NCBI GenBank assembly: GCA_947482125.1
Contig: CANKIV010000003.1
Location: 1 to 40,538 of the forward strand
Origin: Alphaproteobacteria bacterium
GTDB lineage: Bacteria > Pseudomonadota > Alphaproteobacteria > Micropepsales > Micropepsaceae
Length of the DNA: 40,538 nt
Direction of reading: 5' to 3'
Shown here: in pieces, positions 4,653 through 40,538 of the stretch
Layout of the letters: each line of letters starts with the position of its first letter
Numbering within the stretch: the first letter of the stretch is position 1
Position numbers and translations under genes: made by a program
The notes under the pieces: model-generated
What the model was told of the DNA's origin: nothing
Seen by the model: only the letters and a program-made list of their open reading frames with translations
Database searches by the model: none

Positions 4653-4746
4653 TTTCCTAAATACGGTTTGCCGGGCGCCTTTTGGGCCCGGTTCCATGCC
4701 CGGCGCGGGCCTTTCCGGCGGGGCGAACCGCAACGCTTTTAGGAGG
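4653..4746 (+). promoter_or_regulatory. Candidate RNA thermometer / SD-sequestering 5' leader of hsp20
   Basis: TTTCCTAAA (4653-4661) can pair with TTTAGGAGG (4738-4746), which contains the SD, and encloses a CGGGC(G)CC-TTTT-GGGCCCG hairpin. Confidence 0.35.
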
Positions 4747-4753
4747 TTGTCTC

Positions 4754-5191
4754 ATGCGTATTGATTATTCCCCGTTCTACCGTTCCACGGTCGGCTTCGA
4801 CCATCTTCTCAACCTGCTCGACACCAGCGCCGACCAGGGCTATCCGCCCTACAACATCGAGCGCAGCGACGAGAATAATTACCGCGTCACCGTCGCGGTC
4901 GCCGGCTTTGCCGAGAAGGACCTGTCGGTGGATGTGAAGGACCGGGTGCTGACCGTCTCGGGCAAGAAGGAAGAGGCCGAAAAGCCGACCTTCCTGCACC
5001 AGGGCATCGCCGGGCGCGCCTTTGAGCGCAGTTTCCAGCTGGCCGAGCATGTCGAAGTGAAGGCGGCAAGGCTGGAAAACGGCCTGCTCCATGTCGACCT
5101 GGAGCGCCGCGTGCCGGAGGAAAAAAAGCCCCGCCGCATCGCCATCAATGCTCCGGACCTCAAGACCATTGAAGGTTCGAAGGCGGCCTGA
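4754..5191 (+). CDS. Small heat-shock protein, Hsp20/IbpA family
   Basis: MRIDYSPFYRSTVGFDHLLNLLD...YPPYNIERSDENNYRVTVAVAGFAEKDLSVDVKDRVLTVSGKK; AGGAGG SD at 4741. Confidence 0.95.
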   Translation: MRIDYSPFYRSTVGFDHLLNLLDTSADQGYPPYNIERSDENNYRVTVAVAGFAEKDLSVDVKDRVLTVSGKKEEAEKPTFLHQGIAGRAFERSFQLAEHVEVKAARLENGLLHVDLERRVPEEKKPRRIAINAPDLKTIEGSKAA

Positions 5192-14619: not shown

Positions 14620-14625
14620 GTCGGT

Positions 14626-14747
14626 GTCATTCCCGGCGAGCATCGCGAGCGATGCGAGGGAAGGGAATCCAGGCGGTGCCGTTCGCGCAGGTTTAAATGC
14701 CTGGATTCCCTTCCCCTCGGCGCAAGCGCGCCTCGGCCGGGAATGAC
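14626..14747. repeat. Palindromic intergenic repeat element, copy 1
   Basis: GTCATTCCCGGC...GCCGGGAATGAC terminal inverted repeat with nested GGGAATCCAGG/CCTGGATTCCC; similar to 21745-21876. Confidence 0.88.
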
Positions 14748-14756
14748 AGGATGAGG

Positions 14757-21729: not shown

Positions 21730-21744
21730 CACATCTACGCAAGT

Positions 21745-21876
21745 GTCATCCCCGGCGAGCATCGCGCAAAAGCGCGATGCGAGGGAAGGGGAACCAGCTG
21801 GTTGAATTCGTGCCGGTGGTCAGGCCTGGATTCCCTTCCCCTCGGCTTGCTGACGCAAGTCTCGGCCGGGAATGAC
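21745..21876. repeat. Palindromic intergenic repeat element, copy 2
   Basis: GTCATCCCCGGCGAGCATCGCG...CTGGATTCCCTTCCCCTCGGC...CTCGGCCGGGAATGACAGG, closely matching 14626-14747. Confidence 0.88.
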
Positions 21877-21884
21877 AGGAATTC

Positions 21885-30723: not shown

Positions 30724-30798
30724 GGGCGCGTAGCTCAGCGGGAGAGCACTTCCTTGACATGGAAGGGGTCACAGGTTCGATCCCTGTCGCGCCCACCA
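30724..30798 (+). tRNA. tRNA-Val (anticodon GAC)
   Basis: GGGCGCG/CGCGCCC acceptor, TAGCTCAGCGGGAGAGC D-arm, TTCCTTGACATGGAA anticodon arm, GGTTCGATCC T-arm, encoded CCA. Confidence 0.95.
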
Positions 30799-30969
30799 TC
30801 CAGTCTCGCCAATAGGCGAGTGCTGGTTTTCTATCCCGCAATATCAGGCGATTTCCGCCAGATAGCGCGGCCGGAGACGTGGCCGCGCGTCTCTGCCGCC
30901 GCCAATGTGCCCAGAACAGGGTCTATTTTGAGGGCGGTTCTCTAGCCCGATTTCAAAAGTGTGCGTTTG

Positions 30970-31197
30970 CCTGTTATTGCGCGAATAACAGGTGAAACAC
31001 GGCCGCGCGGCCGCAGGCAACATGCAACAGAGACGGAGAACTTCAATAGTCTCTATGCCTTAGCGGGCATCGACGATCCGCGCCGCCGGCAAAAAACAGG
31101 CTCAATAACAGGTACGGAACAGGTCCATAACAGGGCAATAACAGGGCCAGTTTCGCGCAAATAACAGGGCAGTAAATCGAATAACCGGACCTGTCAT
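30970..31197. repeat. Iteron-like ATAACAGG repeat cluster at the 3' side of the recombinase gene
   Basis: Perfect dyad CCTGTTATT-GCGCG-AATAACAGG (30970-30992); ATAACAGG at 31105, 31127, 31138, 31161; degenerate copies at 31093, 31116, 31181 and an inverted one at 31190. Confidence 0.85.
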
Positions 31198-31215: not shown

Positions 31216-32808
31216 CTAGCGAAACGTCGCAAACAGTTTGCGCTGCTCGCTCCAGTCCATCGGCATCGCCCTTTTCACCAGTGCACCCAACGTCAGGGTC
31301 TTGGGCTGTGCGCCTTCCAGTATGGCCGTCGCCAGATCCGGCGCAAGCCAGGCGAACGGCATCAGCTTGGCCGTATAGTGATTGCAGAAGCCATACCGCA
31401 GCGACAGATCCCGGACTGAGGCGACCTCGCCTATCGCTAGCAGCCCCGCCCAGGCCCGTGCCAGGCAGAGGGCACGTAGGAGGGCCCGGTCTACGCGAGG
31501 GGCCTGCGGCGCGGTTCCTGGCGCTTCGATCACGATCGCGGTTTGGCGATGCTTCAATTGGATGCCGATGCTCAGTTCGACCCCGTCTTCGATCTCACGG
31601 ATGTTGGAATGGTCGACCCTCTGATTGGCGTTCGCGGCATCTGCGCGAAGCACTATGGCCACATGCTTCTCGCTAATGGTCACCCGTAAGAGGGCGGCCG
31701 TGACGCGGTCTTCGACCGGCTCGCTGGGCCGCCAGTTTGGCGACAGTGCCGCAGAGACGTGGTCGAGAACAAAGGCATCAAGGACCCCCACACTCATACG
31801 GGGCATGGTCCCGGCCACCTTGCCCTCGTTGTGCAATACTGCGCCAGACACATAGTAGCGGTACCGCTGCCCGCGCCGCGTACAATGCACGTTGCGCATC
31901 GGATGCCCCCGGTCATCGAATAGGACGCCACGTAAAAGGTTTGAAACTGCGAGGCGCGGCGTCGTGGGGAGGTCCGGAGCGTTCACATTTAGTTTGGTCC
32001 GTACCGCCGCCCAGGTCGCGTCATCGACGATTGCGGGGTGGGAGTTTTCGTAGCGCAGGTCCCGATGACAGATAATTCCCCGGTAAACTGGATTGGCCAG
32101 CAGATGATAAAGCGCGCCGCGGCTGAATAGGGCGCCACCGACCTCCACACCCTGCTTATTGGTCCAGCGTTTGGAACGGATGTTCCGCGTTTTGAGATCC
32201 ACGGTGAGTGTCAGGACCGAGCCCAGCTCCAGATAGCGCTGGTAGATATGCCGGACGAGATCAGCTTCCTCGGGGTTGATGACCAGCTTACGGCCGACGC
32301 CATCATAGCCGAGCGGCGGCCGGCCGCCCATCCAGAGTCCCTTGGCCTTCGAGGCCGCAATCTTATCGCGAATGCGCTCGGCGGTGATTTCCCGTTCGAA
32401 CTGGGAGAAAGACAGAAGCATATTGAGGGTTAGGCGCCCCATGGACGTGGTGGTGTTGAAAGCCTGGGTCACCGAAACGAAGCTGACCTTGTGACTATCG
32501 AACTGGTCCACAATCTTGGCAAAGTCGGAGAGCGAGCGCGTCAGGCGGTCTACCTTGTAAACAACCACGACATCGACTTCGCCGCGGTGGATGTCGGTCA
32601 ACAGCTGCTGCAGGCCGGGGCGATTGGTCGAGCCACCTGAATAACCGCCGTCATCATACTCGGCTGCTTTGGCGATCCAGCCCTCGCTCGCTTGTGACCG
32701 CACATAAGCCTCGCAGGCCTCGCGCTGGGCATGCAGACTGTTGAAGTCCTGCTCCAAGCCCTCGTCGGTCGATTTGCGGGTGTAGATGGCGCACCGAATC
32801 CTGTTCAT
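31216..32808 (-). CDS. Large serine recombinase (resolvase + recombinase domain)
   Basis: MNRIRCAIYTRKSTDEGLEQDFNSLHAQREACEAYV...YDDGGYSGGSTNRPGLQQLL...VVVYKVDRLTRSLSDF...FDRERE-like FSQFEREITAERIRDKIAASKAKGLWMGGRPPLGYD. Confidence 0.95.
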   Translation of the reverse strand: MNRIRCAIYTRKSTDEGLEQDFNSLHAQREACEAYVRSQASEGWIAKAAEYDDGGYSGGSTNRPGLQQLLTDIHRGEVDVVVVYKVDRLTRSLSDFAKIVDQFDSHKVSFVSVTQAFNTTTSMGRLTLNMLLSFSQFEREITAERIRDKIAASKAKGLWMGGRPPLGYDGVGRKLVINPEEADLVRHIYQRYLELGSVLTLTVDLKTRNIRSKRWTNKQGVEVGGALFSRGALYHLLANPVYRGIICHRDLRYENSHPAIVDDATWAAVRTKLNVNAPDLPTTPRLAVSNLLRGVLFDDRGHPMRNVHCTRRGQRYRYYVSGAVLHNEGKVAGTMPRMSVGVLDAFVLDHVSAALSPNWRPSEPVEDRVTAALLRVTISEKHVAIVLRADAANANQRVDHSNIREIEDGVELSIGIQLKHRQTAIVIEAPGTAPQAPRVDRALLRALCLARAWAGLLAIGEVASVRDLSLRYGFCNHYTAKLMPFAWLAPDLATAILEGAQPKTLTLGALVKRAMPMDWSEQRKLFATFR

Positions 32809-33263
32809 GCTGAAGCCGCCTTTCGCTTCAGGCCAAAGAACACCGGACCGTTCCATTTGGTCCCGGTGATGTGGTGGGCGACGCGGGATAGGGAACGAAA
32901 TTTCTCGCCCTGGTAGATAAAGCCATCGGCCACCACGGCCACCTCATGGCGTTTGCCCTGCCATTCGCGGATGAGGGATGAGCCTGGCAGCAGGGTTGCG
33001 GCTGCCTGAGGGGCGAACCCGCGGTCAGCCATGAACCGCTCAGCGAGATCGGACGCGTTGCGTCGGACGGAAGCAGGCAGATCACCAAAGGCTTCAGTCT
33101 GAATCCTGTGCGCGAACGCACGGGCCAGCAGTTCACGAGAGCGATATAGCGGCGGCTCACCCCAGCGGCAACGCCACCCAGCGCGCAAAGACTCAAGGTC
33201 AAGGGTGGTGATGCCCATGACCTCGGATGCGACCGTTTTGCTTGTATGATCAAATTTGGACAT
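32805..33263 (-). CDS. DUF2924-family protein
   Basis: LESLRAGWRCRWGEPPLYRSRELLARAFAHRIQ...LLPGSSLIREWQGKRHEVAVVADGFIYQGEKFRSLSRVAHHITGTKWNGPVFFGL; ATGA overlap with the recombinase gene. Confidence 0.88.
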   Translation of the reverse strand: MSKFDHTSKTVASEVMGITTLDLESLRAGWRCRWGEPPLYRSRELLARAFAHRIQTEAFGDLPASVRRNASDLAERFMADRGFAPQAAATLLPGSSLIREWQGKRHEVAVVADGFIYQGEKFRSLSRVAHHITGTKWNGPVFFGLKRKAASA

Positions 33264-33838
33264 AGGGGCTCCGGTTAGCGCTGGCGGCGCGCAACTGCGC
33301 ATCGCCGTCACTGCCCAAAGCCCCGCATTGCCCGTACCGCGAGGCGCCTTGCCTGTGACTACCACCCCAGCCACCACGCCACTGGCGCTCTCTTCGGGGC
33401 CGAAGTCCAGCGCTAATTCAAGGCTCTTCTACGAGACACCAGCCCGTTACCGGGAGCAGACATTTGGCATCCGGCCATTGCAGGCGAAATAGGCCATCTG
33501 CACCCGCTCGAAATAACGCTCCCGACTGCGGGTACAAATCGGACGTACCATTTGAAAATTTCATCGCGACGATGCAGATCGTCTTCATTTGCGCCCCGCT
33601 GTTGCTCGACCATCTCCCCATAATATCGGATGATGTTCGGCTCATCAGGCTGCTAGTTGAACCACTTCAGGGCCTGTGATGTGGAATCGACGTGATCGTT
33701 GTGGTGCCCTTTGGGGAAGTGATCATTTTCTGAAGATAGTTCGCCAGCCATGGGGCTTGGTGCGGGATCAGGGCATGCCAGTTGGCGATCACGGCCGCCC
33801 GCACCACAGGCATTTAGCTCAGTCTCGCCACCTCTGGA

Positions 33839-34583: not shown

Positions 34584-34616
34584 TCCGCGCCTAGCTCAAG
34601 GGTTAGAGTGGCCGCC

Positions 34617-35975
34617 ATGTCATCCGCCTTCGAAGTCATGCTGAACCGGGCGATTGCGCTGCACCGGCAGGGCGATGCCCCGGCGGCCGAGTCGCTGTAT
34701 CGGACGGTGCTAGCAGAACAGCCGGCCAATGGCGAGGCGAACCACAATCTCGGAATGCTGCTAGCGCAGCGGGGTTCAGATGCGGAGAGCCTGCCTTTGT
34801 TCCAGATGGCGCTGAAATCACAACCCGGCGTGGAGCAATATTGGCTTTCCTATGCAAGCGCCCTGCTGGCCACCGGGCACCCGCGGGAGGCGCAGTTGGT
34901 GCTGACCCGCGGGCAGCAGCGCGGTATTTCTGGTCAGGCAGTGAATACCCTACTGCAAAAAACGCAGGCCGCACTGACCCCAAGCGAGGCGGACCTGCGG
35001 GTCGAGTACGGCACTGCCCAAGCGATGCAGGGCCGTCTAGAGGACGCCATCTCGGCCTATCGCGAAGCGATCGCGATCGCGCCGGACCATGCCGAGGCGC
35101 ATTTCCGCCTGGGCTCGATCCTGTCTGAAACTGGTAATATTGCGGAGGGATTCGCCCACTACATGCTGCGTGCCACCCTAGTCCATGGAGGCCGCCCTTG
35201 GCGGCACGACAAAGCGCAGCCGGCTCACAGGACCAAGCATGACCGCGAGCAGGAAAAATACCTAGCCGAATTGCTCGGCCACAGTGCGCCGAACTTTCAC
35301 TTAGAGGATGGCGCGCGCTTGCCCGGCCCTGCCGTCAATCCTATTAACGCCACGCCTGAACTGGTGAAGCAGTGGCAGGGCAGCCTGCCCAAACTCGTAG
35401 TGATCGAAAACTTTCTTACCCCGGCGGCACTGGCCAAGCTGCGCTGCTACTGCGCAGGCTCCACGATCTGGCGCCGTAACTATGACGCTGGCTATATCGG
35501 CGCAACACCAGAGGACGGGCTGGCCTGCCCCTTGATGGCGCAGATTGCGGAGGAGACACGCGCGACCTTCCCCCAGATTCTCGGCGCGCACGCCTTCCGC
35601 TATCTGGGTGCCTTCAAGTATGACAGCGAGGCGTCCACTGGTACCAATACGCATGCGGACAATTCAGCCGTGAACGTCAATTTCTACATCGCGCCTGATG
35701 AGGCAAACACGGACCCCGAAAGCGGCGGTATGGACATCTGGGACGTTAGCGCACCGGGCGGCGAAGAAATGCGCCGCTACAATGGTGACGAAGCGCTAGC
35801 GCAGGATTTTCTGAAGCAATCAAGGGCGCACCTAACACGGGTCCCACACCGCGCCAACCGCGCGGTGATCTTTAAGTCCGATCTCTTTCACAAGACCAGC
35901 GACTGTCGGTTCCAAGAGGGTTACCTGAACAAGCGAATCAATATTTCGCTGCTATTCGGGCATCGCGCCGCCTAA
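34617..35975 (+). CDS. TPR protein with C-terminal 2OG-Fe(II) oxygenase-like domain
   Basis: N-terminal TPRs (ALHRQGDAPAAESLYRTVLAEQPANGEANHNLGMLL); THADNSAVNVNFYIAPDEANTDPESGG...AVIFKSDLFHKTSDCRF...NKRINISLLFG (HxD...H...R). Confidence 0.78.
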   Translation: MSSAFEVMLNRAIALHRQGDAPAAESLYRTVLAEQPANGEANHNLGMLLAQRGSDAESLPLFQMALKSQPGVEQYWLSYASALLATGHPREAQLVLTRGQQRGISGQAVNTLLQKTQAALTPSEADLRVEYGTAQAMQGRLEDAISAYREAIAIAPDHAEAHFRLGSILSETGNIAEGFAHYMLRATLVHGGRPWRHDKAQPAHRTKHDREQEKYLAELLGHSAPNFHLEDGARLPGPAVNPINATPELVKQWQGSLPKLVVIENFLTPAALAKLRCYCAGSTIWRRNYDAGYIGATPEDGLACPLMAQIAEETRATFPQILGAHAFRYLGAFKYDSEASTGTNTHADNSAVNVNFYIAPDEANTDPESGGMDIWDVSAPGGEEMRRYNGDEALAQDFLKQSRAHLTRVPHRANRAVIFKSDLFHKTSDCRFQEGYLNKRINISLLFGHRAA

Positions 35976-36014
35976 TGTTCTCGAGTGTCGGAACCGACGG
36001 ACCATGCAGCCGTT

Positions 36015-36180
36015 GGTGAGCGTTTCAATTCAGCAGGCCACTTGTATTTCTCACAAGCTTCCCACAACCGCCAGCCGGCGCCGTTGGGGGCTTACAAGTT
36101 CCCCGGGGCGACATCCTTGAGGACCTGCTTATCAAGCGAAAGATCAGCCACCAGGCGCTTCAACCGGGGTTCTCCTTCTC
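36015..36180 (-). pseudogene. Degenerate IS3-family transposase fragment (OrfA C-terminus / OrfB N-terminus)
   Basis: Minus strand reads PRLKRLVADLSLDKQVLKDVAPGNL, then in a shifted frame SPQRRRLAVVGSL, matching the ...LKRLVADLSLDKQ.LKDV..GN(F/L).SP.RRR.AV pattern at the IS3 OrfA/OrfB junction. Edges approximate. Confidence 0.7.
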
Positions 36181-36492
36181 CAAATTCTTTATCCGCCTGG
36201 CATGACCAAGCTCCAAACCGCCATATTCCTTGCGCGAGCGGTATTAGCTCTGCTGCGATATTCCAAAATCTCGGCATCGAATCGGCACAGACTTGCCCTG
36301 CAACAACAAAACCTCAATCTGGAGTAGAAAAATTACAATCTGTTCCGCGCTAAAACGGTTCTTCAGCATAACCAGCTTCCTTCCCAAGGCGATTTCTATC
36401 AAATCGCTTGGTACAAAAAGACCTGGTCAGGTCAGGCGACCGCGTCGCGGTTATTTTGCATCAATCTCTATCGCGCCGCTAGCGAGCCGCTG

Positions 36493-38838
36493 TTACTTGA
36501 GTGCGAAGGTCAAAATATTGCTGCCGGATGCCACCGCAATATACTGGCGCCCATTCAGCATGTAGGTCATCGGAGACCCCTTCCAAGCCTGGTTGCCACG
36601 GAAGGTCCATAACGTCTTTCCGCTCTTGGCATCGACCGCGGCAAATCCGCCGCCGGTCTCGCCATAGAACACCAACCCTCCGGCGGTGCTGAGCACGCCG
36701 GCATAGTTGGCCTCCTGCGGTCCTTCCTGCGGAATTTCCCAGACCGTCTTGCCGGTCTCGATGTCGAGGGCGCGCAGATATTTCAGTCCGGGATCGTTGG
36801 GATCGCGAACGCCTTCATATCCCCGGCTCTCCTGGGAAGTCTTACGGTAGATGCTGCAATCCTCCACCGCCATCACATAGAAGAGCCTTGTGTCCGGGCT
36901 GAAGGAGGTCGAATACCAGTTAGTGGCGCCGCGCACCGACGGACAGCCCTTGACGCCGGCCGCGGTCACACTGTTGCCGGGCAGGAGACGGGGCTTGCCG
37001 TCCGCGCCATAGCCGCTGGCCCAGTTCATCTTGCGCACGAACGGTTTGGCCGTGAGGAACTCGCCCGTTATGCGGTCCAGCACGAACATGAAGCCGTTGC
37101 GATCGGCCTTGAGCAGCAGCTTGCGGGGGCGGCCCTGATACTCGGCATCGACCACCAGCACCGGCTCGGTCGCGTCCCAGTCGTGCAGATCGTGCGGCGT
37201 GTACTGATAGTACCAGCGCAGTTTGCCGGTCTTGACGTCCAGAGCGATCACGCAATTGGTGTAGAGATTGTCGCCACCACGCTCGTCGCCATCGGTGGCG
37301 GGGAACGGATTGCCGACGGTCCAGTAGAGCGTGCCGGTCTCCGGGTCATGGGAGCCCGTTAGCCAGGTGGCGCCGCCGCCTATGGCGATGGCGGTGCCCT
37401 TCCAGGTTTCGGAGCCGGGGTCGCCGGGCTTTGGCACCGTCAGGAAACGCCAGGCCTGTTCGCCGGTGGTGACCTTGTAGGCCGCCAGGAAACCGCGCAG
37501 CGGGCTGTCGCCGCCGCCGATGCCGGCAATGACCAGGTCACCCACGACCAGGGGAGCGGAGGTCGCGACGAAATGGCCGGGCGTTTCGGGCATGTGGACG
37601 TTCCACATCAACCCGCCGGTCAGCTTGTTCAAGCAGATCAGATGGGCGTCGGTGGTGGTGAAGAAGACGCGGTCCCCCAGCACCGCCACGCCCCGGTTGG
37701 GCTGGCCCGGACTGCGCCGCCGGCCATCCAGCGGGGTATCGGTGTGCATGTAGCACCAGAGCTGGCGTCCCGTGGCAGCGCCCAGGGCGCAGACCTTGTC
37801 GGCCGCGGTGACATACATGACGCCGTCGACCACTATCGGCGTTGTCTCGAGATTGGGAACGCCCAGCGGGTAAACCCACTCGGCCTGCAGGTTGCCGACA
37901 TTGCTGGTGTTGATCTGGTTCAGGAGGCTATGGCGATTGCCGCCCAGGACGCCGTTATAGGTCGGCCACTCGCCCGGCTTGGGCTTCGCGATGGCGTCCA
38001 TGGTTTCGGCGGAGACCTTCTCCTCCAGCCCCGGCCTTGGACCGAGCTTTGGCACGCCGCCCAGGCTGCTCAGATAGGCGATGAGATCGCGCCGCTCCCC
38101 GGCGCTCGCCTTCAGCGGCGGCATGTAGGAATTTTTCTCGGGCGTGATCGTGAGATATTGCTTGTCGGTCAGGAAATGCAGGCGCCCATCCAGGGTCTGC
38201 AATTCCAGGTCGTGCTCGGCGCGGCCGCGCGCGAAGCCGCGCAGATTTTGTCCATCGCGCAGCCGGACATTGACGATGCGCCAGCTATCGTCGGGGCAGA
38301 AAGCCCATCGCGGGCAACTGGCCGTCGTGTGGATGCCCATCTGGGAGGTGGGATTTTCCAGCACCAGTTCCAGTTCGCGGATGGTGGATTTTCGGCCGAT
38401 GGATGACAGGTCCGGCCCGTTCACTTTTCCCAGGCCATCGACCATGTGGCAGCCGGCGCACTGGCCCTTGCCGAAAAAGAAGTCCGCGCCCGCTTGCACG
38501 TTCCCGGCGGACTTGGTGTCGAAAGCGGACATGTTGAGAGAGCGCAGCCACCCCGCCATCGCGCGAAGTTCGCTATCCGGCAGCTTGAAGGACGGCATGC
38601 CGCCGGGCGTGCCGTTGCTGATCACGTCACGGATCTGCACCTCGGTCATGCTGCGAAGCGTAGGATTGTTGACCAGCGCGGGGGCACGGTCCCCGCCGCC
38701 TGCGCCCTCGCCATGGCACCCTTCGCAGAGGGCGTCATATTGCTTCTCTGCCACCGCGAACACGGCGGGCGCCTGCGCCATCGCCGCTGAAAAGGGCAGG
38801 GCTGCGATCATCAATGCGCCGGCAATGATCTTGATCAT
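36493..38838 (-). CDS. PQQ-dependent quinohemoprotein dehydrogenase with two N-terminal heme c motifs
   Basis: Signal peptide; CEGCH and CAGCH; PQQ beta-propeller blades (VVDGVMYVTAADKVCALGAATGRQLW, GGLVFYGETGGGFAAVDAKSGKTLWTFRGN, MTYMLNGRQYIAVASG). Confidence 0.92.
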   Translation of the reverse strand: MIKIIAGALMIAALPFSAAMAQAPAVFAVAEKQYDALCEGCHGEGAGGGDRAPALVNNPTLRSMTEVQIRDVISNGTPGGMPSFKLPDSELRAMAGWLRSLNMSAFDTKSAGNVQAGADFFFGKGQCAGCHMVDGLGKVNGPDLSSIGRKSTIRELELVLENPTSQMGIHTTASCPRWAFCPDDSWRIVNVRLRDGQNLRGFARGRAEHDLELQTLDGRLHFLTDKQYLTITPEKNSYMPPLKASAGERRDLIAYLSSLGGVPKLGPRPGLEEKVSAETMDAIAKPKPGEWPTYNGVLGGNRHSLLNQINTSNVGNLQAEWVYPLGVPNLETTPIVVDGVMYVTAADKVCALGAATGRQLWCYMHTDTPLDGRRRSPGQPNRGVAVLGDRVFFTTTDAHLICLNKLTGGLMWNVHMPETPGHFVATSAPLVVGDLVIAGIGGGDSPLRGFLAAYKVTTGEQAWRFLTVPKPGDPGSETWKGTAIAIGGGATWLTGSHDPETGTLYWTVGNPFPATDGDERGGDNLYTNCVIALDVKTGKLRWYYQYTPHDLHDWDATEPVLVVDAEYQGRPRKLLLKADRNGFMFVLDRITGEFLTAKPFVRKMNWASGYGADGKPRLLPGNSVTAAGVKGCPSVRGATNWYSTSFSPDTRLFYVMAVEDCSIYRKTSQESRGYEGVRDPNDPGLKYLRALDIETGKTVWEIPQEGPQEANYAGVLSTAGGLVFYGETGGGFAAVDAKSGKTLWTFRGNQAWKGSPMTYMLNGRQYIAVASGSNILTFALK

Positions 38839-38885
38839 GGAGTTGGGTGCTTTCGCTTTGCTCGTGGGAGGATTGCAAGGCCAGG

Positions 38886-39878
38886 CTAGGTCAGGCTGGG
38901 CTGGTTCGCGCGCCGCTTCTTCCAGCGATAGGCCGCCAGCGAATTCTTCCAGAAGACTTTCTCCATCACCTCGCGGCCCTTGGGCGTGAAATATTCCAGG
39001 TCCAGCGCCACCAGCTCGCCGAAGGTGCTCATGGGTTCGCTGTTGGTCCAGTCGCTGCCGAACATCAGCCGATCGGGCCCGAAAGTCTCATAGATTTCGT
39101 CCAGGCGCGGTTTGTAGAAAGCGAGGTCCTTGGGGATGCGGCCGCCTGTCTGCACTCGGCGGCCGCGTTCGTCCACGCGTTGGAAAATTGCGGAGAACTT
39201 TCCATAGATGTGCGGGCGCTTGACTAGTTCCTCGGTCTGCTTTTGCCAAGTGGCGCGCACCGCCGGATCGTCGGGGATCCGCTGGGCCGGCAGGTGGTTG
39301 AGTACGACCCGCAGATTGGGAATCCGGTCGGTGATCTGCAGCAACTGGCGCACCTGTTCTGGGCCAGCGCCAAAGTCCATGGCCAGACCGGCTTCGGCCA
39401 GCGCCTTGAGGTCGGCCCAGACCTGCGGCTTTTTCAGCAGCGCCTCGACATCGCGGCCCCAGAGATTGGAAACGCGGATGCCGAGATAGAGAGGATTGCG
39501 GTGCAGCCGCTCCAAATGTTCGCGATAATCGGGATGGCCGAGCAACAGGTCGCCCACTTCGCCGACCATGAGGGGCTCGTTCTTCGAAACGTCCATCACC
39601 CAGTAATTGTCTTCAATCCAGGGACTGCATTCGGTCTCGATCGCGCCGACCACGCCATGGGGTTCGGCGATCTTGGCGTAGTCCCCGGGCAGAAAGCGGC
39701 GATAGATGCTGGTGGGCTGGTCTTTGTTCGGCCATGGCACGCCTTGCGGGCGCGTAGGGTCGTACAGATGCACGTGCGTATCGATAATCGGGACGGAATA
39801 TTTCTGGGCCTTGGCGCCTGTCGCAGACGCGCCAATCGCGGCCGCTCCTGCAGCTTCTATGAATCTGCGTCGATCCAC
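38886..39878 (-). CDS. Tat-exported amidohydrolase-family (TIM-barrel; predicted lactonase/COG3618-like) protein
   Basis: Twin-Arg signal MDRRRFIEAAGAAAIGASATGAKA; IIDTHVHLYDPTRP (HxH), VVLNHLPAQRI, DRLMFGSDWTNSEP. Confidence 0.82.
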   Translation of the reverse strand: MDRRRFIEAAGAAAIGASATGAKAQKYSVPIIDTHVHLYDPTRPQGVPWPNKDQPTSIYRRFLPGDYAKIAEPHGVVGAIETECSPWIEDNYWVMDVSKNEPLMVGEVGDLLLGHPDYREHLERLHRNPLYLGIRVSNLWGRDVEALLKKPQVWADLKALAEAGLAMDFGAGPEQVRQLLQITDRIPNLRVVLNHLPAQRIPDDPAVRATWQKQTEELVKRPHIYGKFSAIFQRVDERGRRVQTGGRIPKDLAFYKPRLDEIYETFGPDRLMFGSDWTNSEPMSTFGELVALDLEYFTPKGREVMEKVFWKNSLAAYRWKKRRANQPSLT

Positions 39879-40029: not shown

Positions 40030-40538
40030 ATGGCATTTCCGAAGATCAAGCATGTGCGCGCCTTTGTGGTGCGCGGCGGCGGCGCCGATTATCACGACCA
40101 GGTCGGCGGACACTGGATTGACGACCATATCGCCACGTCCATGGCGCGCTATCCCGAATACCGCCAGAGCCGCCAGAGCTTCGGCATCAATGTTTTGGGC
40201 ACGCTGGTAGTGGAAATCGAGGCCGATGACGGCACGGTCGGCTTCGCGGTCACCACCGGCGGCGAACCTGCCTGCTTCATCGTGGAAAAACATCTCGCCC
40301 GCTTTCTGGAAGGGCGCGATCCCGCCCATACCGAGAAGATATGGGATCAGATGTATTTCTCCACCCAGTATTACGGCCGCAAGGGCTTGGTGATCAACGC
40401 CATCTCGGGCGTGGACTTGGCGCTGTGGGACCTGTTGGGCAAGCTGCGCAAGGAGCCGGTGCATCAACTCTTGGGCGGGGCGGTGCGCGATGAACTTCAA
40501 TTCTATGCCACCACGGCGCGGCCGGACCTGGCCAAACA
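40030..40538 (+). CDS. rhmD: L-rhamnonate dehydratase-like enolase-superfamily protein (3' truncated by window)
   Basis: Not in the supplied ORF track because it runs off the window; [98 protein letters not shown]...[46 protein letters not shown]. Confidence 0.88.

Follow-up and report, generated by a model that had tools for sequence, protein, structure and literature searches.

The window analysed here is a stretch of 40,538 nucleotides from an alphaproteobacterium of the family Micropepsaceae (contig CANKIV010000003.1). In it, a tRNA-Val gene and a large serine recombinase (LSR, integrase) face each other across an intergenic stretch holding a dyad, a set of short inverted boxes and an array of iterons, and a DUF2924 gene and the remnant of a phage terminase lie behind the recombinase:

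30724 to 30798, plus strand: tRNA-Val(GAC), called by ARAGORN; its 3' end, ..CCCACCA, is the predicted island junction (attL)
30803 to 30807, no strand assigned: GTCTC box, 4 nt past the tRNA CCA
30805 to 30820, plus strand: terminator-like hairpin from a consensus scan alone, with ~0.7 such sites expected by chance
30874 to 30893, no strand assigned: inverted box pair, GAGAC (30874) and GTCTC (30889)
30970 to 30992, no strand assigned: dyad CCTGTTATT-GCGCG-AATAACAGG, two perfect 9-bp arms
31030 to 31053, no strand assigned: second inverted box pair, GAGAC at 31030 and GTCTC at 31049
31093 to 31145, plus strand: five iterons starting at 31093 (degenerate), 31105, 31116 (degenerate), 31127 and 31138, about one helical turn apart
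31161 to 31188, plus strand: two more iterons, 31161 (exact) and 31181 (ATAACCGG), at steps of about two turns
31216 to 32808, minus strand: LSR, intact (PF00239, E 2e-38; PF07508, E 6e-14)
32805 to 33263, minus strand: DUF2924 protein of 152 aa (PF11149, E 1e-40), directly upstream of the integrase, as in relatives
33575 to 33766, minus strand: decayed remnant of the gene for a phage terminase large subunit (TerL), 41% identical to the TerL of L051 by tblastn, frames broken

The LSR has the layout of a large serine integrase, with an N-terminal Resolvase domain followed by a Recombinase domain (expected ~450-600 aa), and its gene sits at the end of the element beside the att junction, which also matches large serine integrases. 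Translation likely starts at 32808, where ATGA overlaps the stop codon of the DUF2924 gene; the longest open reading frame begins at 32856. In 28 loci of LSR relatives, the stop codon of the LSR gene faces the 3' end of a tRNA gene, on the opposite strand in 28/28, at a distance of ~170-500 bp and with many kinds of tRNA. A DUF2924 gene is found directly upstream of LSRs of the window's family in ~60 loci, including those of the phages WO and AcaML1, and this pairing implies that DUF2924 is a general partner. The upstream position spans phyla (window 32805-33263; L225 5056-5487; L226 5531-5974). When the model of the DUF2924 protein (pLDDT 93) was compared with the PDB, no match was better than E 0.2, so the fold gives no clue to DNA binding. 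A search for tyrosine recombinases (PF00589) gave no match in the islands checked, from nine genomes, or on the window contig.

From the TerL fragment upstream of DUF2924, the window island appears to belong, in decayed form, to a broader group of islands with a module of ParB-MTase, DUF5681, TerL, DUF2924 and LSR. Beyond the recombinase, at 34608-39878, lie genes for a TPR protein, a PQQ dehydrogenase with cytochrome domains and an amidohydrolase, which may be island cargo, the far end of the island being off the contig. Elsewhere in the window, two similar stretches of ~135 bp (14625-14749 and 21743-21878) form a dispersed repeat that recurs in the congeners L134 and L135.

Exact copies of the iteron ATAACAGG stand as direct repeats at 31105, 31127, 31138 and 31161, and the same unit makes up both arms of the dyad (30970-30977 on the minus strand and 30985-30992 on the plus strand). 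The window thus holds six exact copies, compared with 0.30 per shuffle, and six was never reached by the shuffles; ten dispersed copies occur elsewhere in the source draft genome. With AAAACAGG (31093) and GGAACAGG (31116), both degenerate, and with the degenerate unit at 31181 that was absent from the sequence-only reading of this DNA, the array comes to seven units, with start-to-start spacings of 12, 11, 11, 11, 23 and 20 bp. When the 417-bp intergenic stretch was shuffled 5000 times by dinucleotides, neither eight copies of AACAGG (mean 0.12) nor four intervals of 10-12 bp ever arose. The exact copies and the degenerate copies at 31093 and 31116 reported by the sequence-only reading are therefore present far above shuffle expectation, and its 11-bp register holds; what it took for a gap before 31161 is itself about two turns (23 bp), and the dyad that it described as perfect over 23 bp has arms perfect over 9 bp each around a central GCGCG that is not palindromic. 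Relative to the recombinase gene, the array is on the 3' side, past the stop codon (31216) and not near the promoter.

On the other side of the array from the recombinase is the 3' end of the tRNA-Val (30798), and between the tRNA and the array/recombinase side there are five GAGAC/GTCTC boxes compared with 0.39 expected; both the tRNA and the boxes had gone unmentioned in the earlier reading. Similar boxes occur between recombinase and tRNA in relatives, and in the island G160 the spacing of the box next to the tRNA is the same (CCA-CCCA-GTCTC). The hairpin at 30805 may serve the tRNA. At the dyad, no promoter or terminator was called and no RNA family was matched. The closest congener, G204, is homologous to the window through the last base of the tRNA and not past it, and the sequence 3' of the tRNA-Val is different in each of the eight congeners compared, which makes this a variable insertion site. 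None of the congeners compared, each with its own tRNA-Val 3' flank, provided an empty site for the window island. From these comparisons the window island is placed at the 3' end of tRNA-Val, with the window showing its attL end; the distal end is off the contig, which ends at 40538.

Several LSR relatives carry TTCCCTG iterons and a three-unit dyad, TTCCCTG-N4-TTCCCTG-N5-CAGGGAA, between the LSR and the tRNA, and the dyad of the window is the counterpart of this dyad without a clear outer unit. Allowing up to three mismatches, the three-unit dyad was matched in 58 of 385 alphaproteobacterial genomes, and the reversed control in only a handful. As to whether arrays are equally common in genomes lacking the recombinase, a point raised with the original proposal, the answer is no: dyads with at most two mismatches were found in 8/30 genomes with a strong recombinase relative vs 6/160 without one (odds ratio 9.3, p = 2e-4). 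The association of dyad and LSR across these genomes is clear, if not complete. Two arrangements, assigned by hand, could be recognized. In type B, to which the window belongs, the order is LSR, iterons, dyad, GAGAC boxes and tRNA; in type A, the array is at the far end of the island, where the iterons and dyad stop 6-18 bp short of a conserved half-site. This half-site, GAGACGGGTTCGC....GACTGC...CACCGCCA, was aligned in 37 copies with conservation ending right after CCA, and its consensus, being drawn from loci found via the dyad, describes those loci and not all LSR islands. The sequence CCGCCACC is common to the tRNA end and the distal half-site, ~55 kb apart in G160 and ~64 kb apart in G022, and its presence at both places marks them as the two ends of an island. 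A contiguous empty site for the G022 island was looked for and not found.

Across the Alphaproteobacteria, the common layout is a dyad, ~90 bp, and then the iterons, mostly TTCCCTG. Relative to the dyad, the closest units lie near -98, -119 and -140 bp, with one inverted unit near -81. The intervals between neighbouring units across the related arrays are 21-22 bp, i.e. two helical turns, in 76 of 103 cases; in the window and L037 the spacing is 11 bp, or one turn. The 100 bp between the dyad of the window and its first unit fits the common distance once the missing outer dyad unit is allowed for. The unit itself drifts, from TTCCCTG in most islands to TTCGCTG in G066 and CCTGTT in L037 and the window, a pattern to be expected of a unit that keeps pace with an evolving protein. 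Whichever side the array lies on, it is the single arm of the dyad that points to the core, so that the orientation to the crossover stays constant, although by the LSR tree the array has changed sides three times or more. With respect to the MTase-TerL genes, the orientation varies. The array is thus tied to att and not to a gene.

Several of the islands compared are tandem or decayed. In L037, L199, L208, L221 and L240, the core separates the LSR from the array, an arrangement that attP or tandem copies would show. G037 was considered as a clean attR and rejected since the sequence past its distal core resembles another P' arm; its elements are probably in tandem. The distal site of G301 was dropped as weak. 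For L053, an interpretation as attP was replaced by one in which an array island is inserted in a ~50-bp tRNA-Ser 3' fragment beside phage structural genes (4700-5100), the fragment having probably been left by a prophage; such an insertion would cap the size of attB. The tRNA-linked relatives L017 and L021 have the dyad and few or no iterons, which indicates that the iterons are not indispensable.

The gene content of the islands was followed in G160, which carries metal-related cargo, and G022, which carries phosphonate, sulfatase and transport genes, each along with LSR, DUF2924, MTase, DUF5681 and TerL. Among the best 25 families listed for these two islands there were no capsid, portal or tail genes, and the idea of a full prophage was rejected on that basis. 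DUF5681 is encoded between ParB-MTase and TerL (L054 2159-2641, L234 9041-9436) and has a conserved KPPxxxxFKxGxSGNPxGRPxG motif; the position of its gene suggests a putative terminase small subunit. Tandem units of 2.5-11 kb keep the array and half-site without a detectable LSR or terminase. Such recombinase-less units are seen in L192 (9057-14653), L201 (6741-13559), L196 (3478-14390) and L214 (8286-10834), each between two array/half-site ends in the same direction, and the unit in L192 encodes proteins matching the candidate defence families PDC-S31 and PDC-S06. From their genes, the islands look like satellite-like cargo elements that could move in trans.

On balance, we favor the interpretation that the dyad and iterons are probably the att accessory arm of a tRNA-targeting island whose integrase would be the adjacent LSR. 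An att or accessory site was among the functions put forward by the sequence-only reading, and this is well supported: in dozens of genomes, related arrays keep a fixed place and orientation next to the half-site or to the 3' end of a tRNA gene. Its suggestion of autoregulation is not supported, the array being downstream of the recombinase in the window and separated from it by tens of kb in further islands. The evidence for an accessory arm is the 28 LSR-tRNA loci, the abutment on the half-site, the phasing, the orientation of the single arm and its at least three switches of side, along with the shared CCGCCACC ends, the lack of a tyrosine recombinase, the drift of the unit and the recombinase-less tandem units that keep the array. 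Counted against it are the occurrence of the dyad in some genomes without a strong recombinase match, the scarcity of iterons in L017 and L021, the search for an empty site that found none, and the known serine integrases, for which ~50 bp without accessory sites is enough (PMC4111918). The comparisons establish the sequence architecture, the phasing and geometry in other islands, the tie to att, the targeting of tRNA genes and the lack of tyrosine integrases in the islands checked; from them we infer the role of the array in recombination, and which proteins might bind it. A possible mechanism has the GAGAC boxes around the crossover occupied by the integrase (or by DUF2924 or another partner), and the iterons contacted from one face of the DNA by an integrase domain or a partner protein. 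Being helically phased and at a fixed distance, the array, once bound, would be able to fold back onto the core and so license or direct recombination, like the arm sites of lambda attP, which serve an unrelated enzyme class. A more far-reaching scheme, which we offer as a tentative one and would not expect to hold in full, can also be envisioned: an LSR family widespread in Alphaproteobacteria would assemble a lambda-like complex on the phased array with a dedicated partner (DUF2924 or other), placing cargo islands at tRNA genes, the same ends would mobilise the recombinase-less units in trans, and the islands' own terminase would package them into helper particles.

The main rival is that the array is a packaging (pac/cos) signal beside att, from which the island's terminase, perhaps with DUF5681 as its small subunit, fills the capsid of a helper phage. 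The terminase of the islands makes such a role possible, with ParB-MTase and DUF5681 adjoining TerL, and phased direct repeats are a plausible layout for terminase binding. However, the position and orientation of the array track the att core, not the terminase genes, and the window retains its array despite a broken terminase, as do the small tandem units in which no terminase was detected, although a packaging signal can act in trans; we regard packaging as unlikely. Less likely still is a replication origin of the excised circle, in the intergenic space next to att. Iteron origins do have a similar general layout of helically spaced iterons and a dyad, but no replication initiator was among the best families listed for G160 and G022, and neither the fixed spacing to the half-site nor the mirror placement around the core would be expected of an origin.

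Two further explanations were considered. Tyrosine integrases classically pair a core at a tRNA 3' end with short phased arm repeats, and the repeats of the window could be the arm sites of such an enzyme, with the serine recombinase as a passenger. Since PF00589 was matched neither in the islands checked, from nine genomes, nor on the window contig, this obvious rival is removed and largely refuted, and it is the LSR itself that faces tRNAs of many kinds in the 28 loci, so that we give this explanation almost no weight. It is also highly improbable that the repeats have no role in mobility and are just a terminator, operator or chance repeat. Lying 3' of the recombinase, the dyad might fold into a short hairpin, but no terminator, promoter or RNA family was called there, and other islands show the same layout with tens of kb between it and the recombinase; the strong excess over shuffles and the conservation of array and half-site in many islands argue against chance.

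In the open-licence literature we found no description of the array, the half-site or the island group, and a prior description elsewhere is possible. The half-site and dyad provide a sequence signature for locating the ends of many mobile islands in Alphaproteobacteria, and metal-related, phosphonate or candidate defence genes are found in some of the islands marked in this way. The value of serine integrases as tools comes from their short att sites and their independence of accessory sites. A natural branch with a conserved helically phased array would show that serine integrases can also build regulated complexes, and would supply integrases aimed at tRNA 3' ends.

Among known elements, the phage satellites PICI, VEIMEs and tycheposons use a tyrosine integrase, whereas the present islands have a serine one. 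The likeness to these satellites (PMC11389934), judged here from genes, is that of an integrative element with a packaging gene and cargo, and in G160 and G022 TerL is present without structural genes among the best 25 families listed; in the window, TerL is broken. The Wolbachia phage WO and the Acidithiobacillus phage AcaML1 have an LSR of the same family (35-48% identity) with DUF2924 directly upstream, but these are complete tailed phages and the present elements are cargo islands. Phage WO is reported to integrate in a magnesium chelatase gene or between genes, and the paper describing this does not mention tRNA (PMC9203015). The serine-recombinase prophages of Paracoccus are likewise from Alphaproteobacteria; the part of that report on which we draw gives 16 of them, assigns vB_PamS_Pami6 to a tRNA-Met gene, identifies no integration site for the largest cluster (11 recombinases) and mentions no repeat array (PMC6536676). 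With the lambda-type attP there is a likeness in a core and phased arm repeats at a fixed distance, which would be one of working principle only, the enzyme class being unrelated and the islands checked having no tyrosine integrase. Textbook serine integrases have att sites of at most ~50 bp, with no accessory sites and no accessory factor needed for integration (PMC4111918). The LSR of the window resembles the large serine integrases of the phiC31/Bxb1 type in its Resolvase and Recombinase domains and in the position of its gene at the end of the element; the difference is that here a conserved phased array reaches ~170 bp or more from the half-site and that the targets are tRNA 3' ends. This suggests that the attachment site used by the serine integrases of these alphaproteobacterial islands is large and elaborate, in contrast to that of textbook integrases.
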